A stretch of 64,000 nt of DNA from positions 434,001 through 498,000 of the forward strand of contig NZ_JAGPXE010000003.1 in the NCBI RefSeq assembly GCF_018070075.1, written 5' to 3'. This stretch comes from Saccharopolyspora endophytica. GTDB lineage: Bacteria > Actinomycetota > Actinomycetes > Mycobacteriales > Pseudonocardiaceae. The position numbers and the translations under genes are program-made. The notes below the pieces were generated by a model. It ran no database searches. It was not told the DNA's origin and saw nothing but the letters and a program-made list of their open reading frames with translations. Positions 53,030 to 60,516 of the stretch are shown here, one piece after another. The first letter of the stretch is position 1. Each line of letters starts with the position of its first letter.

Positions 53030-53075
53030 CCCGTAGGATGGCCTTCCTCGATGCAGAATGCGAAGGAGGTGCCCG

Positions 53076-54077
53076 GTGGTCACCAGCCGGGACGTGGCAC
53101 GGCTGGCAGGCGTGTCCCAGATGACCGTGTCCCGCGTCCTGCAGGACAACGGCAAGGTCGCCCCGCAGACCCGCGAACGCGTGCTGGCGGCGATGCGGGA
53201 GGCCGGCTACCGGCCGCACGCCGCCGCGCGCACGATGCGCACCCGACGCACCGCGACGGTCGGCGTCGTCGTCGCCGACATCACCAACCCCTTCTACCCG
53301 CAGCTGCTGGAAGCCGTCGCCGAGGCCCTCGACGCGGCCGGTCAGCGCATGGTGCTGTGGAACGGCCCGGACGGTTCGGGCGCCCTGGAGTCCCTCGACG
53401 AGGGAACGGTGGACGGGCTGATCTTCACCACCGTCACCGAGGCGACGCCGCAGCTGAGCGACGCGGTCGCTCGCGCCGAGCCGATCGTGCTGCTGCACCG
53501 CGGGCTCGACGAGCTCGACTGCGACCAGGTCACCACCGACAACGCCGCGGGCGGACGCGCCGTCGCCGACTACCTGGTGGCCACCGGCCACACCCGCATC
53601 GGCTTCCTGCGCGGCCCCGAGCTGCCGAGCACCGCCCGGCACCGCGAGCACGGGTTCCGCGAACGCCTCGCCGAGCTCGGCAACCCGTTGTCCGAAGACC
53701 TCAGCGCACCAGGCGGTTTCGCGCACGACGTCGCCCGCTCGGCGATGCGCGACCTGCTGGACCGGGCCGACCCGCCGACGGCGGTGTTCTGCGCAAACGA
53801 CCTGACCGCTCTGGGAGCCGTGGACGGCGCGGTGTCGCTGGGCCGGCGGGTCCCGGAGGACGTGTGGGTGATCGGCTACGACGACATCGCGCTGACCGCC
53901 TGGGACTCCTACGACATCACCACGGTCCGCCAGCCGATCGCGGAGATGGCGCGCGCGGCGGTCGCGCGGCTGCTGGAGCGCATCGGCGACCGCGACCTGC
54001 CGACCCGCAGGGATTGCTTCCCCAGCGAGCTGCTCGTGCGCGGCTCGACCGCGCACACCGCACGTCCGGCGCACTAG
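53076..54077 (+). CDS. LacI family transcriptional regulator
   Basis: A 333-residue repressor. The DNA-binding headpiece is [20 protein letters not shown] and the hinge [14 protein letters not shown]. The periplasmic-binding-like domain follows ([59 protein letters not shown]). Start GTG with a near-perfect AAGGAGGT five bases away. It is divergent from the HisD-like/MHS operon with two palindromes between, so it should control that operon and itself; the inducer is likely the imported compound. Confidence 0.94.
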
Positions 54078-54131
54078 CCGGGCCTCTGCCAGACTCGGAT
54101 TCGTGGTTCGGCAATCGTCGAGGGGCGGGCG

Positions 54132-55115
54132 ATGACTTCCTTTCCGACGGCGCTGGGCTTGTCGGCCGAGCAGTCCCGGGACGTGATCGGCTGCGCCGGG
54201 CGCGCTCCGTCGCTGCACAACCGGCAGCCGTGGCGGTTCCGGCTCTCCGAACAGGTCATCGAGGTCCACGCCGACCCGCAGCGACGGCTGCCCGCCACCG
54301 ATCCCGACGACCGCGAGCTGCGCCTGGCCTGCGGCGCCGCTCTGCTGAACCTGCGGCTGGCGCTCGAGAGCGCGGGGATCCGCCCGGTGATCGACCCGCC
54401 TTCCCCGCTGGCACCACCGACCGCGCTGGCCGAGGTCCGCAGCGGTGGTCGCACCACCCAGAACCCCGCCGAACGCGCGCTGCACGAGGCGATTCCGCGG
54501 CGGCGCAACAACCGCCGACCGTTCCAGGAGACCCCCGTCCCGACCGCGGACCGCCACGCGCTGGTCAGCGCCGCCCAGCGGGAGCAGGGCCGGCTGCACG
54601 TGCTCACCCGGACCGAGCTCGACCCCTTCGCCGAACTGGTGCACCGAGCGCACCGCGCGCAGATGGAGGACGAGCGCTTCCGCGCCGAGATGGACCACTG
54701 GACGGGCCGCGAGCGCGACGCCAGCGAGGGAGTCCCGGCCGCCGCCTCCGGGCCGTTGCCGGAGCCCCAGGACCTGTGGGTGGTGCGGGACTTCTCAGCC
54801 GGGCGGGCTCCCACCCGGGTTGCCGGCAAGGACTTCGAGCGCGAGCCGTTGCTGACCGTGCTGTGCTCGCAGCACGACAGCCGCACCGACGACGTGCGGG
54901 CCGGTCAGGCACTGCAACGGGTGCTGCTGACCGCGTGCGCCCACGGCTTGTCCTCCTCGGTGCTCTCGCAGGTCCCGGAAGTCGCTGAGACCCGCGAAGA
55001 ACTGCGCCGCATGCTCGGCGGTTCGCTGCGTCCGCAGGCGGTGCTGCGCTTCGGCTACGGCTCCCCCACTCCGGAGACGCGTCGCCGGGAACCCGAGGAC
55101 CTGCTGCTGGATTAG
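54132..55115 (+). CDS. Acg-like nitroreductase family protein
   Basis: A 327-residue protein resembling the mycobacterial Acg family (Rv2032), in the DosR regulon. Seen: CAGRAPSLHNRQPWRFRLSE near the N-terminus (the FMN-phosphate region), RRNNRRPFQETPVP in the middle and LRPQAVLRFGYGSPTPETRR at the end. The fold is a fused pair of nitroreductase halves, and the typical function may be flavin sequestration rather than catalysis. Possible link to the Hrp1/DevR-like genes at 13-14 kb, though far apart. Single gene. Confidence 0.85.
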   Translation: MTSFPTALGLSAEQSRDVIGCAGRAPSLHNRQPWRFRLSEQVIEVHADPQRRLPATDPDDRELRLACGAALLNLRLALESAGIRPVIDPPSPLAPPTALAEVRSGGRTTQNPAERALHEAIPRRRNNRRPFQETPVPTADRHALVSAAQREQGRLHVLTRTELDPFAELVHRAHRAQMEDERFRAEMDHWTGRERDASEGVPAAASGPLPEPQDLWVVRDFSAGRAPTRVAGKDFEREPLLTVLCSQHDSRTDDVRAGQALQRVLLTACAHGLSSSVLSQVPEVAETREELRRMLGGSLRPQAVLRFGYGSPTPETRRREPEDLLLD

Positions 55116-55190
55116 ATCAACTCGGGCGTCGGTGCACATCGGCTCCGATTTCGGGCACGATGGGCCTCCGGGCTGCACGAGGAGGTGCGC

Positions 55191-55760
55191 ATGGCGAAGC
55201 TGATCTACTCCGCGATCGGTTCGCTCGACGGCTACCTGAACGACGCCGAGGGGCGCTACGACTGGGCCGTTCCCAGCGACGAGGTGTTCGCGTTCATCAA
55301 CGACCGGGAACGCGACGCGGGCACCTACCTCTACGGGCGACGCATGTACGAGGAGATGATCGCTTGGGAGACAGGCGATTTCACCGCCGAGGGACCGCTG
55401 ATGGAGGACTTCGCGCACCTGTGGCGCAAGGCGGAGAAGGTCGTCTTCTCGCGCACCCTGGCCGGTGTCTCGACAACGCGAACCCGGTTGATGCGGGAGT
55501 TCGACCCGGATTCGGTCCGGCGGCTCAAGGAGTCCTGCGCGGAGGACCTGCTGATCGGTGGCGCGGTGCTGGGCGGCCAAGCGCTGGACGCCGGCCTGGT
55601 GGACGAGGTCCAGATCTACACCGCGCCGGTGCTCGTGGGCGGCGGCACCCGGATCTTCCCGTCGAAGACCCGGGTGCCGCTGAACCTCGTGGAGCACAGG
55701 CGTTTTGACGGAGGCATGACCTTCCACCGCTACGCCTGCGCGCGACACGGCCAGCCGTGA
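55191..55760 (+). CDS. Dihydrofolate reductase-like (RibD C-terminal domain) protein
   Basis: A 189-residue protein of the RibD_C/DHFR-like superfamily (IYSAIGSLDGYLNDAEGRYD, TYLYGRRMYEEMIAWE, LLIGGAVLGGQALDAGLVDE, RIFPSKTRVPLNLVEHRRFD). Such small reductases bind NADPH; substrates are seldom known. GAGGAGG precedes the ATG. Its stop codon lies inside a strong terminator hairpin. Confidence 0.88.
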   Translation: MAKLIYSAIGSLDGYLNDAEGRYDWAVPSDEVFAFINDRERDAGTYLYGRRMYEEMIAWETGDFTAEGPLMEDFAHLWRKAEKVVFSRTLAGVSTTRTRLMREFDPDSVRRLKESCAEDLLIGGAVLGGQALDAGLVDEVQIYTAPVLVGGGTRIFPSKTRVPLNLVEHRRFDGGMTFHRYACARHGQP

Positions 55761-55805: not shown

Positions 55806-57263
55806 TCAGTAGCGGTAGTGCTCGGGCTTGTAGGGGCCCTCGACGTCGACGCCGATGTAGGCGGCCTGCTCCTTGGTCAGCTTGGTCAGCTTCACACCCA
55901 AGGCGTCCAGGTGCAGACGCGCGACCTTCTCATCCAGGTGCTTCGGCAGCACGTAGACGTCCTTGCCGTACTCACCGGGCTTGGTGAACAGCTCGATCTG
56001 CGCGATCGTCTGGTTCGTGAAGCTGTTCGACATCACAAACGACGGGTGGCCGGTGGCGTTACCCAGGTTCAGCAAACGACCCTCCGACAACACGATGATC
56101 GAGTGACCATCGTCGAAGGTGTACTCGTGCACCTGCGGCTTGATCTCCTGCTTGGTCACACCCGGCGTCTTCTCCAAACCGGCCATGTCGATCTCGTTGT
56201 CGAAGTGACCGATGTTGCCCACGATCGCCTGGTGCTTCATCTTGGCCATGTGCTCGGCCTTGATGATGTCGTAATTACCCGTCGTGGTGATGAAGATGTC
56301 CGCGTACTCCACGACATCCTCAAGCGTCTTGACCTCGTAACCCTCCATCGCCGCCTGCAGGGCGCAGATCGGGTCGATCTCGGTCACGATCACCCGGGCA
56401 CCCTGACCCCGCAGCGACTCCGCCGAACCCTTACCCACATCACCGAAACCACAGATCACCGCGACCTTGCCACCGATGAGCACATCCGTGGCGCGGTTGA
56501 TGCCATCCACCAACGAGTGCCGGCAGCCGTACTTGTTGTCGAACTTCGACTTCGTCACCGAGTCGTTGACGTTGATCGCCGGGAACAACAACCCATCGGA
56601 CTTCACCAGCTCGTAGAGCTTGTGAACACCCGTCGTGGTCTCCTCCGTGACACCCTTGATCTCCGCGGCCAGCTTCGTGAACCGCTGCTTGTCCGCCGCC
56701 ACCGACTTGCGCAGCGTCTCCAGAACGACCTTGAACTCCTCCGGGTCATCCGCGCTCGGCTGCGGCACAACACCCGCCGCCTCGAACTCCACACCCTTGT
56801 GGACCAGCAGCGTCGCGTCGCCACCATCGTCGAGGATCATGTTGGCGACCTTGCCGTCACCGAAGTCCCACAACTGGTCCGTGCACCACCAGTAGTCCTC
56901 CAGCGTCTCGCCCTTCCACGCGAACACCGGAACACCCGCCGGGGCTTCCGGGGTGCCCTTGCCCACCACGACCGCGGCAGCGGCCTCGTCCTGGGTGGAG
57001 AAAATGTTGCACGACACCCACCGCACCTCAGCACCCAGCGCGACCAGCGTCTCGATCAGCACCGCAGTCTGCACCGTCATGTGCAGCGAACCCGCGATAC
57101 GGGCGCCCTTGAGCGGCTGCGAAGCCGCGTATTCCTTCCGCGTGGCCATCAGACCCGGCATCTCGTGCTCGGCCAACCGAATCTGGTGCCGACCCGCCTC
57201 GGCCAACCCCAGATCCTTCACGGCGAACTCCAGGCCGTTGACCTTCTGCAACTTGACGCTCAT
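55806..57263 (-). CDS. sahH: S-adenosylhomocysteine hydrolase
   Basis: A 485-residue adenosylhomocysteinase, splitting S-adenosylhomocysteine into adenosine and homocysteine with bound NAD. Seen: [20 protein letters not shown] near 50-70, [15 protein letters not shown], the NAD-binding [20 protein letters not shown], and the C-terminal [20 protein letters not shown] ending YRY. The start follows GAGAGGAAG; the longer frame would translate the riboswitch leader. The third-position GC bias is very strong, as for a highly expressed gene. A probable SAH riboswitch lies 175-255 bp upstream. Confidence 0.97.
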
Positions 57264-57418
57264 GACTTCCTCTCGGGTGCAAAGATTCATCGACGATCGA
57301 GTCCGCATTGGACTGCTTCGGCGGAGGTGCCGGATGGCGATCGCACGGGGTCGGCGAAGATTCGGCTCAGCACGACCCGGCATCGTCGGCCGTCGGCCGT
57401 GATCCCTCTCGCGACATC

Positions 57419-57446
57419 AAAAAAGGCACCTCCGTCAGGAGGCGCC
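57419..57446 (-). terminator. Regulated intrinsic terminator in the sahH leader
   Basis: On the minus strand GGCGCCTCC (57446-57438), loop TGAC, GGAGGTGCC (57433-57425), then six T (57424-57419). A complete intrinsic terminator with U-run, 155 bases before the sahH start. Its 5' arm overlaps the riboswitch pseudoknot. Confidence 0.85.
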
Positions 57447-57518
57447 CTTACCGTGCTGTCCCTTTACCCCGCCGGCCGAGCGTGGCGGACGTGAAGTCCG
57501 TTGCAGCGCCTCTCAGCC
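57438..57518 (-). ncRNA. SAH riboswitch aptamer upstream of sahH
   Basis: On the minus strand: GGCTGAG (57518-57512) pairs with CTCGGCC (about 57480-57474) as P1; the conserved core GGCGCTGCAACGG follows; GGAC-TTCAC-GTCC forms P2; GCCACGCTCGG resembles the SAH-riboswitch CCAGGCUCG. After a variable part, TAAGGGCGCCTC lets GCGCCTC (57445-57439) pair with GAGGCGC (57512-57506) in the pseudoknot. This matches the known architecture as I recall it (GAGGAGCGCUGCAA ... CCAGGCUCG ... AACGGCGCUC). SAH binding would form the pseudoknot, break the terminator and raise sahH expression. Confidence 0.8.
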
Positions 57519-57630
57519 AGCGGTCGCACTCCTGATCGGAGCGCATCGAGTCGGTCGAACCCGGCGTGCCCAAAATTCTGGTGACGCCCGGGGACTTTGT
57601 CAAGCTGCCAGGTCGGAGCGCCCGCCTCCC

Positions 57631-57658
57631 CGAACATCACCGGAACAGGTGATGTTCG
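57631..57658. promoter_or_regulatory. Perfect 11-bp inverted repeat upstream of the galactan glycosyltransferase
   Basis: CGAACATCACC (57631-57641) and GGTGATGTTCG (57648-57658) around six bases. It lies between the divergent sahH leader and glycosyltransferase, about 100 bp before the latter. Operator is more likely than terminator, since it is between divergent genes. Confidence 0.45.
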
Positions 57659-57753
57659 TCGGACCGGCGGTCGCGCCTTCCTGCGCTGCGCGCGCGGGCG
57701 CGATAGACACGAGCGACAAACCGTTGAGATCAAAGCTAAAGAATGCGGCGCTC

Positions 57754-59670
57754 ATGACACTTGTTGGCGGCATCCGTGAAGTGGACGAGAACGAGACGCT
57801 CCAAGCCGAACGTCAGGACGAACCCCGGCGGGGAAATCCCGGCCCGGCCATGGCCATGCGGACGTTCTTCACACCTCCGTTCGCCAGCCTGCCCGTGGAT
57901 CTCTACGCCAAGATCGAGGACGGCGCCGCCACCCGGCACCGCAACGCGGTGACGGTCCACCCGCACAGCGCGGTGTCCACCTCGACCTACTTCGGGCGCT
58001 TCCCCGCCAGCTACTGGCAGCGCTGGACCTCCGCCGCCGAGGTGACCGTCCGCGCGAGCGTCAGCGGCGCCGGGATCGTGCGCGTGATGGCGTCGGACTC
58101 GCGAGGCGGAGCCCGCACGCTGCACACCGAACGGGTCGCGGGAAGGACCACCGAGTCCCAGGTGTGCTGGACCCTGGACATCGGCAAGTTCGTCGACGGC
58201 GGTGCGATCTGGCTCGAACTCATCACCGAGGCCGACTCGCTGCAGGTCGCCGACGTCGCGTGGTTCGTGCCGAACCCGCCGCGCAGCCGCCCCACCTCCG
58301 CGGTGCTGTGCACCCACAACCGCCCCGACGACTGCCTGAACACGCTGCGCGCGCTGGCGGCCGACCCCGCGGCGATGAGCGCGCTGTCGGCGGTCTACGT
58401 GGTCGACCAGGGTGACGACACCCTCGAGTCCCGCGAGTCGTTCGAGTCCGTCCGGGAGATGTTCGGCGGTCTGCTGCACTACCGGCGTCAGCGGAACCTC
58501 GGTGGCGCAGGCGGTTTCACCCGCGGGCTGCACGAGACGCTCGCCGACGACGAGAGCGCGGCCAACGCGCTGTTCATGGACGACGACATCCTCCTGGAAC
58601 CGGACACGGTCGTGCGGATGACGACGTTCGCCAACTCCGCCGTCGAACCGATCGTCGTCGGCTCGCAGATGCTGCAGCTGCTGCACCCGTACCGGATCCA
58701 CGTCTCCGCCGAGCACGCCCGCTTCACCACCATCGAACCCGGCCTGGCCGTCGACGGCGGTCTGGACCGCGCCGACCTCACCGAGGAGCTGCAGGAGCGG
58801 CGGGTCGACGCCGACTACAACGCCTGGTGGTGCTGCCTGCTGCCCTCGGAGATCGTGCGCGACGCCGGCTACCCCATCCCGATGTTCTTCCAGTGGGACG
58901 ACGTCGAGTTCGGCTACCGCATCCGCGGGCGCGGCCACGCGACGGTCACGCTGCCGGGGGCGGCGGTGTGGCACGCCGACTTCGACTGGAAGGACGAGGA
59001 CAGCTGGGTCCGATACTTCACCTTGCGGAACGCGCTGATCATCGACGCGCTGCACGGTGACTTCGACGGGACCGCCAGCGCGAAGGTCTTCCTCCGCTGG
59101 GCCGCCGAATGCCTGGTGTCGATGCGCTACGGCCAGGCCGAGGTGCTCCTCGCGGCGGTGGAGGACTTCCTCGCCGGTCCGGACGTGCTGCGCGACGGCG
59201 ACGCCTCGACGATCGCCCGGATCGCGAGGATCCGCGCCCCGCACGGCGAGACCGCGCGGCACAAGCCTTCGCAGGTACCCGGCCTGACCGGCGCGTCCCG
59301 GCCGATCGCCAAGGCAGGTCCGCACCCGGCCCGGCGCAGGCTCGTGCTGGCCAAGCGCCTGGTCTGGCACCTGCTCGGCAAGGTCGGCGGTTCGGCGTCC
59401 ATCTCGTCCGGCGACGCCCACTGGTGGCACGTCGGGCTCTTCGAGACCGCGGTGGTCACCGACGCCTCCCAGGAGTCGGTGTCGGTCCGCAGGGTCGATC
59501 GCGACGAGCTGCGCCGCATCGGCGCGAAGGTGCTGCGCACGGCGTTGCGGCTGCACCGCGAGGGGGATCGGGCGCGCGGTGCGTGGCGTGAAGGCCACCG
59601 CTCGCTCACCAGCAGGGAGAACTGGACACGCCTGTTCCAGCTCGACGAAACCAACGCTTCCAAGGAGTAG
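57754..59670 (+). CDS. glfT2: Galactofuranosyltransferase GlfT2-like
   Basis: A 638-residue glycosyltransferase, the same length as mycobacterial GlfT2 (637), which extends the cell-wall galactan from UDP-galactofuranose. Order: N-terminal beta-barrel (residues to about 185), then a GT-A domain with VLCTHNRPDDCLNTLRALA, the metal-binding FMDDDILLEP (Asp about 276-278), the catalytic-base region FQWDDVEFGYRI (about 380) and VWHADFDWKDE with its conserved His; the C-terminal part is helical. The start at 57754 is chosen by length; its ribosome site is weak. The methyltransferase gene follows after three bases. Confidence 0.92.
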   Translation: MTLVGGIREVDENETLQAERQDEPRRGNPGPAMAMRTFFTPPFASLPVDLYAKIEDGAATRHRNAVTVHPHSAVSTSTYFGRFPASYWQRWTSAAEVTVRASVSGAGIVRVMASDSRGGARTLHTERVAGRTTESQVCWTLDIGKFVDGGAIWLELITEADSLQVADVAWFVPNPPRSRPTSAVLCTHNRPDDCLNTLRALAADPAAMSALSAVYVVDQGDDTLESRESFESVREMFGGLLHYRRQRNLGGAGGFTRGLHETLADDESAANALFMDDDILLEPDTVVRMTTFANSAVEPIVVGSQMLQLLHPYRIHVSAEHARFTTIEPGLAVDGGLDRADLTEELQERRVDADYNAWWCCLLPSEIVRDAGYPIPMFFQWDDVEFGYRIRGRGHATVTLPGAAVWHADFDWKDEDSWVRYFTLRNALIIDALHGDFDGTASAKVFLRWAAECLVSMRYGQAEVLLAAVEDFLAGPDVLRDGDASTIARIARIRAPHGETARHKPSQVPGLTGASRPIAKAGPHPARRRLVLAKRLVWHLLGKVGGSASISSGDAHWWHVGLFETAVVTDASQESVSVRRVDRDELRRIGAKVLRTALRLHREGDRARGAWREGHRSLTSRENWTRLFQLDETNASKE

Positions 59671-59673
59671 ATC

Positions 59674-60516
59674 GTGAACATGCTGTCCCGCGTTCTCACC
59701 CCCGTGCGGGCCGCCGCACGGGAGAAGTTGCAGCGAGCGGTCTCCGAGGCCGTCGCGGGCGTGATCCGCCCCGAGATCGACCGCGCCGTCAACGCCACCC
59801 GCGACTTCGAGATGCGGTCCCGCCGCGACCTGTTCGCCGCCGGTGAGCGCGACGCCGCGGTCTCCACCGCGCGGCTCGTCCACCAGGAGATGGCCTCGGC
59901 GCGGATGCTGCCCAACCCCATCGCCACCCTCAACCACGCGCTGTCGCTGGCCCCGGCCGAGGGCATGGCGCTGGAGTTCGGCGTCTACTCCGGCAAGACG
60001 CTCACCGAGATCGCCCGCTCCCGCAAGGGCGTCGACGTCTACGGCTTCGACTCGTTCGAGGGCCTGCCGGAGCACTGGCGGGCCGGGTTCCCGGAGGGCA
60101 CCTTCGGCGGCGAGATGCTCCCCGACGGCCCGCCGGCGGTGGAGGGCGCGGAGCTGGTGGTCGGCTGGTTCGACGACACGCTGCCGAAGTTCCTGGAGAC
60201 CCATCCGGGCCCGGTGGCGTTCCTGCACGTCGACTGCGACATCTACTCCTCCACCAAGACCGTGCTGGAGCTCGTCGGCCCGCGTCTGCGGCCTGGCAGC
60301 ATCGTGGTGTTCGACGAGTTCTTCAACTACCCGGGCTGGCAGTTCGGCGAGTACCGCGCCTGGGGGGAGCACGTCGACGCGACCGGTTGGAAGTTCTCCT
60401 ACGAAGCCTTCACCATCGACAACGAACAGGTGGCCGTCCGGCTGACCGACGTCGGTTCTACCGTGGACATCGAGAGGTTCGCGCCGGCTCCCCGCGCCGC
60501 GGTTCAGCAGCGCTGA
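59674..60516 (+). CDS. TylF/macrocin-type SAM-dependent methyltransferase
   Basis: A 280-residue protein. About 90 N-terminal residues are helical and charged; the rest is a class I methyltransferase: LEFGVYSGKTLTEIAR (motif I), YGFDSFEGLPEHWR, LHVDCDIYSSTKT (metal-binding Asp region) and VFDEFFNYPGWQFGE. This wording is that of sugar O-methyltransferases of the TylF group. AAGGAG lies six bases before the GTG. Its tight link to a GlfT2-like gene suggests methylation of a galactan or related glycan, which is inference. Confidence 0.85.
   Translation: MNMLSRVLTPVRAAAREKLQRAVSEAVAGVIRPEIDRAVNATRDFEMRSRRDLFAAGERDAAVSTARLVHQEMASARMLPNPIATLNHALSLAPAEGMALEFGVYSGKTLTEIARSRKGVDVYGFDSFEGLPEHWRAGFPEGTFGGEMLPDGPPAVEGAELVVGWFDDTLPKFLETHPGPVAFLHVDCDIYSSTKTVLELVGPRLRPGSIVVFDEFFNYPGWQFGEYRAWGEHVDATGWKFSYEAFTIDNEQVAVRLTDVGSTVDIERFAPAPRAAVQQR

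Follow-up and report, generated by a model that had tools for sequence, protein, structure and literature searches.

Can a single RNA strand in front of sahH, the gene for SAH hydrolase, serve both an SAH sensor and a transcription terminator? The question arises at a locus of Saccharopolyspora endophytica that lies within a stretch of 64,000 nucleotides of contig NZ_JAGPXE010000003.1, which is called the window here. A first-pass annotation of this DNA had claimed that the sahH leader folds as an SAH riboswitch and that the 3′ pseudoknot strand doubles as the 5′ arm of a six-U terminator. Every part that it named was present at 57520–57419 on the minus strand. We consider it likely that the element is an SAH riboswitch that turns sahH on at the level of transcription; SAH is the presumed ligand, and both cellular termination and the direction in which the gene responds are predicted from sequence. 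The features of the locus, in window coordinates, are as follows.

57575–57603, minus strand: promoter-like TTGACA, 17-base spacer, CAGAAT (scan: one found versus 0.0 expected)
57433–57520, minus strand: SAH riboswitch aptamer, a match to RF01057 below the gathering score
57512–57518, minus strand: P1 5′ strand, pairing with 57474–57480 (helix 95.2% paired in 24 relatives)
57506–57511, minus strand: pseudoknot 5′ strand AGGCGC, 100% paired with 57440–57445 in 24 relatives, with both-sides changes at two pairs
57496–57500, minus strand: P2 5′ strand (P2 99.2% paired in 24 relatives)
57486–57490, minus strand: P2 3′ strand (P2 99.2% paired in 24 relatives)
57482, minus strand: C in CCACGC, compared with G in the Rfam consensus (CCAGGC); C in 24 of 24 aligned relatives
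57474–57480, minus strand: P1 3′ strand, partner of 57512–57518 in the alignment of 24 relatives
57440–57445, minus strand: pseudoknot 3′ strand GCGCCU, which doubles as a portion of the terminator 5′ arm
57419–57449, minus strand: intrinsic terminator with a 12-pair stem, loop UGAC and U tract (terminator scan)
57429–57433, minus strand: GGAGG in the terminator 3′ arm, Shine-Dalgarno-like and probably a relic, judged by comparison with relatives
57419–57424, minus strand: U6 tract, read from the sequence
57415–57417, minus strand: ATG 11 bases past GGAGG that begins a short frame lacking conservation and is probably a relic start
55806–57263, minus strand: sahH, SAH hydrolase, 485 codons from the likely ATG (PF05221, E 2.6e-147; PF00670, E 3e-83)

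The sahH start was picked by the conserved MSVKLQ, which places it (57263) 155 bases downstream of the U run.

The aptamer in the sahH leader

In a permissive search of 57350–57650, RF01057 (the ahcY motif) aligned with all 78 of its positions to 57520–57433 on the minus strand, with 31.6 bits and an E-value of 2.5e-4. The alignment was full length, and one P2 pair was flagged as non-standard. The leader element ranked first in the whole-genome search (E 0.0014), followed by a runner-up with 19.2 bits and an E-value of 1. At an E limit of 10, RF01057 gave nine matches in the genome of the window (G000) and also matched 10 of the 14 control genomes, so that the top match alone was trusted. The covariance-model search, proposed with the first-pass annotation as a check on the riboswitch claim, gave a divided answer: the match is full length and the best in the genome, but its 31.6 bits fall under the gathering score of 37, and Rfam at its gathering threshold returned zero matches across the window. 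RF01727, the SAM/SAH riboswitch, was absent from the five matches obtained at E up to 10 in 57350–57650.

Reading the minus strand from 57520, we found P1, the core AGGCGCUGCAA, P2, CCACG, a 28-base linker, GCGCCU, the remaining hairpin, and UUUUUU ending at 57419. Comparison with the conserved core GCGCUGCRA and CCAGGCUCG showed that GCGCUGCAA is present, and that the junction CCACGCUCG differs at one base, which does not vary across the 24 aligned relatives. The fold of the leader beat 200 of 200 dinucleotide shuffles (z = −3.9).

Covariation in relatives

At an E-value of 0.1 or less, RF01057 matched in 32 of 61 genomes, comprising that of the window and 60 relatives, with seven above the gathering score; none of the 14 controls was matched. 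We collected 30 leaders, from which six near-copies were removed, and aligned the remaining 24. Of the 432 cells that make up P1, P2 and the pseudoknot, 97.9% were paired versus 93.4% after shuffling. Both sides were changed at 8 of 18 pairs, and the covariation score was 0.231 versus 0.141. The observed value was reached by none of 500 shuffles on four of five measures and by 13 of 500 on further pair types. When the structure was slid along the alignment, pairing amounted to 42% at most. All cells of the pseudoknot were paired, and two of its six pairs had changed on both sides. The relatives support the aptamer, including the pseudoknot, by covariation. Conservation of the paired positions, the other check proposed beforehand, proved strong, and the claim that the sahH leader is an SAH riboswitch is supported by the RF01057 match below the gathering score, the covariation and the sahH context.

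The terminator and the shared strand

A scan found one terminator at the leader versus 0.3 expected from shuffles, consisting of a 12-pair stem and a loop of four followed directly by U6. We calculated −20.7 kcal/mol for the terminator hairpin, −4.0 kcal/mol for the same hairpin once GCGCCU was blocked, and about −10 kcal/mol for the pseudoknot helix alone; these are nearest-neighbour estimates that leave out tertiary and ligand energy. GCGCCU is common to both structures and its blocking weakens the hairpin to this extent, which confirms the claim that the 3′ pseudoknot strand is the 5′ arm of a six-U terminator. In the predicted pseudoknot-free fold, P1, P2 and the terminator coexist. The promoter-like sequence TTGACA-17-CARAAT occurs in 11 of the 12 Saccharopolyspora sahH-riboswitch leaders, at a distance (54–60 bases) similar to that in the window.

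The neighbourhood was also surveyed. Divergent from sahH, 57649–60516 on the plus strand encodes a GlfT2-like galactofuranosyltransferase and then a Methyltransf_24/TylF-like methyltransferase. Past the sahH 3′ end, 53058–55760 on the plus strand encodes a LacI-family regulator, a nitroreductase-family protein and a RibD_C-domain protein.

Proposed switching mechanism

In the absence of SAH, P1 and P2 would form and GCGCCU would be free for the GGAGGUGCC side of the hairpin. The ligand-free state would then hold P1, P2 and the terminator together, as in the pseudoknot-free fold, and RNA polymerase would halt at the U6 tract. In the SAH-bound state, GCGCCU would take AGGCGC as the aptamer pseudoknot, the terminator would be blocked and SAH hydrolase would be produced. 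SAH presumably keeps the pseudoknot in place before the 3′ arm of the hairpin is transcribed. Because the hairpin is stronger than the pseudoknot (−20.7 versus about −10 kcal/mol), switching would rely on ligand energy together with the order of cotranscriptional folding. The predicted direction, in which ligand on means gene on, is consistent with the sequence, with the covariation and with the position before sahH. Counting against this explanation are the score under 37, the G to C change off the consensus at 57482, the 6 of 22 congeners without the element, and the 2 of 12 sahH leaders without a U run of at least five.

An actinobacterial variant and the genes behind it

The window element is one case of an actinobacterial SAH-riboswitch variant. 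Relative to the Rfam consensus (GAGCGC/GCGCUC), the pseudoknot here (AGGCGC/GCGCCU) has two adjacent pairs swapped on both sides, and the exchange puts CCUCC, an anti-Shine-Dalgarno sequence, in the 3′ strand. A scan with the variant pattern matched at least 120 stretches, and 120 of the 120 matches listed were from Actinomycetota, representing about 40 genera whose orders range from Pseudonocardiales to Catenulisporales; the pattern was derived from actinobacterial elements and therefore maps the occurrence of the variant, not that of the class. Within the order, the model R2 found the element in 94 of 298 genomes, which represent 26 of 76 genera. On a draw from the phylum it matched 12 of 396 genomes, ten in the order and two probably false. 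The latter two (L249 and L250) both read as coding, L249 being weak at 33.7 bits, and were taken as false. Alignable elements that carry the signature of the window element do exceed the Rfam gathering threshold, in 7 of the 61 genomes above and at 5 of 18 named actinobacterial loci chosen for genus spread. The other 13 of these loci are missed, so that the class is probably under-counted in Actinomycetota.

Altogether, 198 distinct elements fit the pattern. By BLAST, their genes were assigned as metH (112), sahH (65), MOSC-domain (10), adenosine deaminase (2), MFS (2) and others (7), a tally that is a sample, with 31 of the 112 order-search matches outside it. The seven others comprise metK (L221, L222), methyltransferases (L022, L226, L227), an adenosine-deaminase-like gene that is cut off (L052) and a contig end (L150). 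Pfam confirmed metH at L009, adenosine deaminase at L038 and L232, MOSC at L035 and L186, metK at L221, methyltransferase at L226 and L022, and MFS at L103; L222, L227, L052 and L085 were assigned by similarity or by eye. Twelve loci outside the pattern, judged by eye, include metH, sahH and MOSC-like genes as well as L232.

Several of the less common settings were recorded individually. The variant stands before adenosine deaminase at L038, L066, L232 and L052. It lies upstream of MOSC-domain genes (L030, L034–L036, L045, L152, L186, L196, L197) in Saccharopolyspora, Micromonospora, Saccharothrix and others, of class I methyltransferase genes at L022 and L226 (both by Pfam) and L227, and of MFS transporter genes at L085 and L103, the transporter frame at L085 beginning about 250 bases downstream. 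Extra lower-scoring elements with altered core or pairing were observed at L198 (G005) and L199 (G006), of which L199 appears decayed.

Hairpins over ribosome sites and terminators

The first-pass annotation had regarded the overlap of pseudoknot and terminator as a very compact design in an actinobacterium. The overlap is there, but it is not special to this locus: 179 of the 198 actinobacterial elements have a hairpin further on that pairs at least four of the six bases of the pseudoknot strand (19 do not), and the hairpins that share pseudoknot bases are mostly without a U run. In many relatives the pseudoknot 3′ strand is positioned opposite a ribosome site, that of metH, sahH, MOSC, metK or other genes. 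Among the metH elements of our first set, 89 of 93 have an in-frame start codon at most 25 bases from the strand, so near that the 3′ arm of the hairpin is the ribosome site.

Some complementarity to the strand is expected, because CCUCC matches any GGAGG. Independent evidence comes from the position just inside the CCUCC core, which was paired in 85.6% of 146 hairpins versus 51.5% after shuffling (0 of 2000 as high), and C-G, G-C and U-A pairs were all common there. The second inner pair was formed in 62% of 109 hairpins versus 49% after shuffling, and pairing at the five outer hairpin pairs was not above shuffles. The stretch was more stable than its own shuffled mean in 191 of 197 cases, by single-base shuffles, which are a weak control.

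U runs were distributed unevenly. A run of at least five past the hairpin occurs in 18 of 65 sahH leaders versus 0 of 133 other elements. Among the 53 of the 65 sahH leaders that have a placeable frame (12 were left out), such runs occur in 0 of 13 with a near start codon versus 18 of 40 with a far one (p = 0.002, which is overstated, the rows being related). In the first set, the corresponding counts were 0 of 13 versus 16 of 32 with a T-run cut of five (p = 0.0014) and 0 versus 12 with a cut of six (p = 0.0096); with a cut of four (3 of 13 versus 17 of 32, p = 0.10) there was no significant separation. Three leaders (L023, L108, L156) have U4 plus a near start codon at the hairpin.

These hairpins allow a reading in which the aptamer is real and the hairpin works mainly on translation or mRNA stability, with the U run adding little termination. 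In many relatives a like hairpin, lacking a U run, lies at the true start codon. Moreover, the terminator 3′ arm contains GGAGG in 12 of 12 Saccharopolyspora leaders, with a start codon 8–12 bases on (ATG in ten and GTG in two, partly by eye), and where a U run exists in these leaders it occupies the spacer between GGAGG and the start. A script had called TTG as the start in 10 of the 12; a U run followed by G yields TTG by itself, and the ATG or GTG seen by eye was used instead. In the window, however, sahH starts 155 bases past the U run. The frames behind the hairpin are unconserved and range from 4 to 53 codons without a common sequence, by which a conserved leader peptide behind the terminator was also rejected, and U runs of at least five are confined to far-start leaders. 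We regard an effect mainly on translation or stability as improbable at this locus, and retain the transcriptional ON switch.

From the sequences, we read the series as a ribosome-site hairpin that turned into a terminator while the start moved downstream; the terminator in the window would thus derive from a hairpin that once masked a ribosome site. In a tree of SahH proteins (46 of the 65), the U-run label changes 10 times over all rows, and the starred branches force one change. A repeated origin of the U run is suggested by this 46-row tree.

The ligand

The altered junction base at 57482 might mean that the fold binds another ligand, such as SAM, adenosine or a relative. C is fixed here in the 24 aligned actinobacterial elements, the Rfam consensus being G, and two elements lie upstream of metK (L221, L222), a gene that, according to a passage in PMC4239095, is not controlled by SAH riboswitches in Proteobacteria. 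Against this, sahH or metH, the genes expected of an SAH sensor, are behind 177 of the 198 elements, and the core GCGCUGCAA is retained; we consider a change of ligand very improbable. An ordinary terminator with a chance likeness to the aptamer, for which one could cite the absent gathering-threshold match and the fact that 10 of 14 control genomes are also matched once E is allowed up to 10, is scarcely credible, being contradicted by conservation and covariation, by the location before sahH, and by the result at E 0.1 (0 of 14 controls versus 32 of 61 relatives, 7 above the gathering score).

The second sahH in Saccharopolyspora

The R2 element was detected in 16 of 22 Saccharopolyspora genomes, in 12 of those before sahH, and was not found in the other six. 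The U run of at least five is present in 10 of these 12 sahH leaders, the exceptions being L016 and L025. A SahH search revealed a second copy in several Saccharopolyspora genomes, and in the seven that were readable for both copies (G000, G001, G003, G005, G006, G016, G017) the element is on one copy only. The element-free copy has an upstream flank common to 17 loci in all and sits in the row PfkB kinase, metH, sahH, MTHFR_2 (in G000, Pfam identified the kinase and metH; in G003, MTHFR_2 was identified by Pfam and the other genes by similarity). The window sahH would be the additional copy, presumably SAH-sensing.

In all seven genomes the copy-to-copy match begins 0–14 bases before the start codon, and in the five without a contig-end cut the main matching stretch ends no more than about 25 bases away from the stop codon. 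Within a genome, the two copies share 92–100% identity across their first 876 bases; identity to the nearest counterpart in another genome is 86–94.5% and is the lower of the two in 7 of 7 genomes. Such a pattern would be the mark of gene conversion, with repeated recent duplication as the alternative; the second copy in G000 stops at a contig end, and the case is carried mostly by G001, G003, G005 and G006.

That second copy (G000:C9:3-878; L280, L282) is 97% identical to the window copy over 885 bases and has no riboswitch. At L258/L273 in G005, about 150 bases of the sahH 3′ end are repeated behind one copy with 97% identity. L252 (G009), whose upstream flank is that of the housekeeping copy and whose downstream flank is that of the riboswitch copy, was set aside as a probably collapsed assembly.

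Implications and comparison with known riboswitches

A wider account joins these observations, and on it we are evenly divided. In this actinomycete SAH-riboswitch variant, a compensated two-pair exchange would have written an anti-Shine-Dalgarno sequence into the pseudoknot, so that one strand would be sensor, anti-Shine-Dalgarno and, after a U run arose in the spacer between Shine-Dalgarno and start, terminator arm, turning a translational into a transcriptional switch in place. The second sahH of Saccharopolyspora would be SAH-inducible and kept alike to the housekeeping copy by gene conversion, and the regulon of the phylum would reach adenosine deaminase and metK.

The leaders form a natural series with one competing hairpin, which covers the ribosome site in certain species and is ended by a U tract in others, so that a comparison of extant species could be used to study the change from translational to transcriptional control. 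SAH regulation is predicted to extend to adenosine removal, through adenosine deaminase, and to SAM synthesis, through metK. Furthermore, the predicted SAH-sensing sahH beside a housekeeping copy is an example, open to testing, of an enzyme kept under two different controls.

Judging from the title of Wang 2008 as cited, the published SAH riboswitch class is said to activate genes. The statement in the first-pass annotation that SAH riboswitches are best documented in proteobacteria needs a qualification, since their occurrence in actinobacteria is not new as such: a passage in PMC3766115 reports that Mycobacteriaceae also have SAH riboswitches, which are of the same class and phylum as the window element. 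That passage gives neither platform nor targets. In our sampled loci the mycobacterial elements are mostly before metH and, unlike the window element, none has a U run of at least five behind the hairpin. Neither a terminator-type nor an actinobacterial SAH riboswitch appeared in the titles and abstract openings searched; Wang 2008 and Edwards 2010 were outside that search, and we therefore do not claim a first description. RF01727, the SAM/SAH riboswitch, is likewise a pseudoknot RNA and binds SAH and SAM, but it is a separate RNA family, described in the relevant part of PMC2864571 only in Rhodobacterales before metK.

The window element shares with RF01057 the helices P1 and P2, the pseudoknot, the core GCGCUGCAA, the place before sahH/ahcY and the predicted ON direction. 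It differs in the exchange of two pseudoknot pairs, in the junction (CCACGC in place of CCAGGC) and in a score below gathering. It differs also in that the 3′ pseudoknot strand of the variant carries CCUCC, which serves as a terminator arm here and as an arm of the ribosome-site hairpin in relatives. Structure and context place the element in the known class, of which it is a variant in its pseudoknot, platform and targets.
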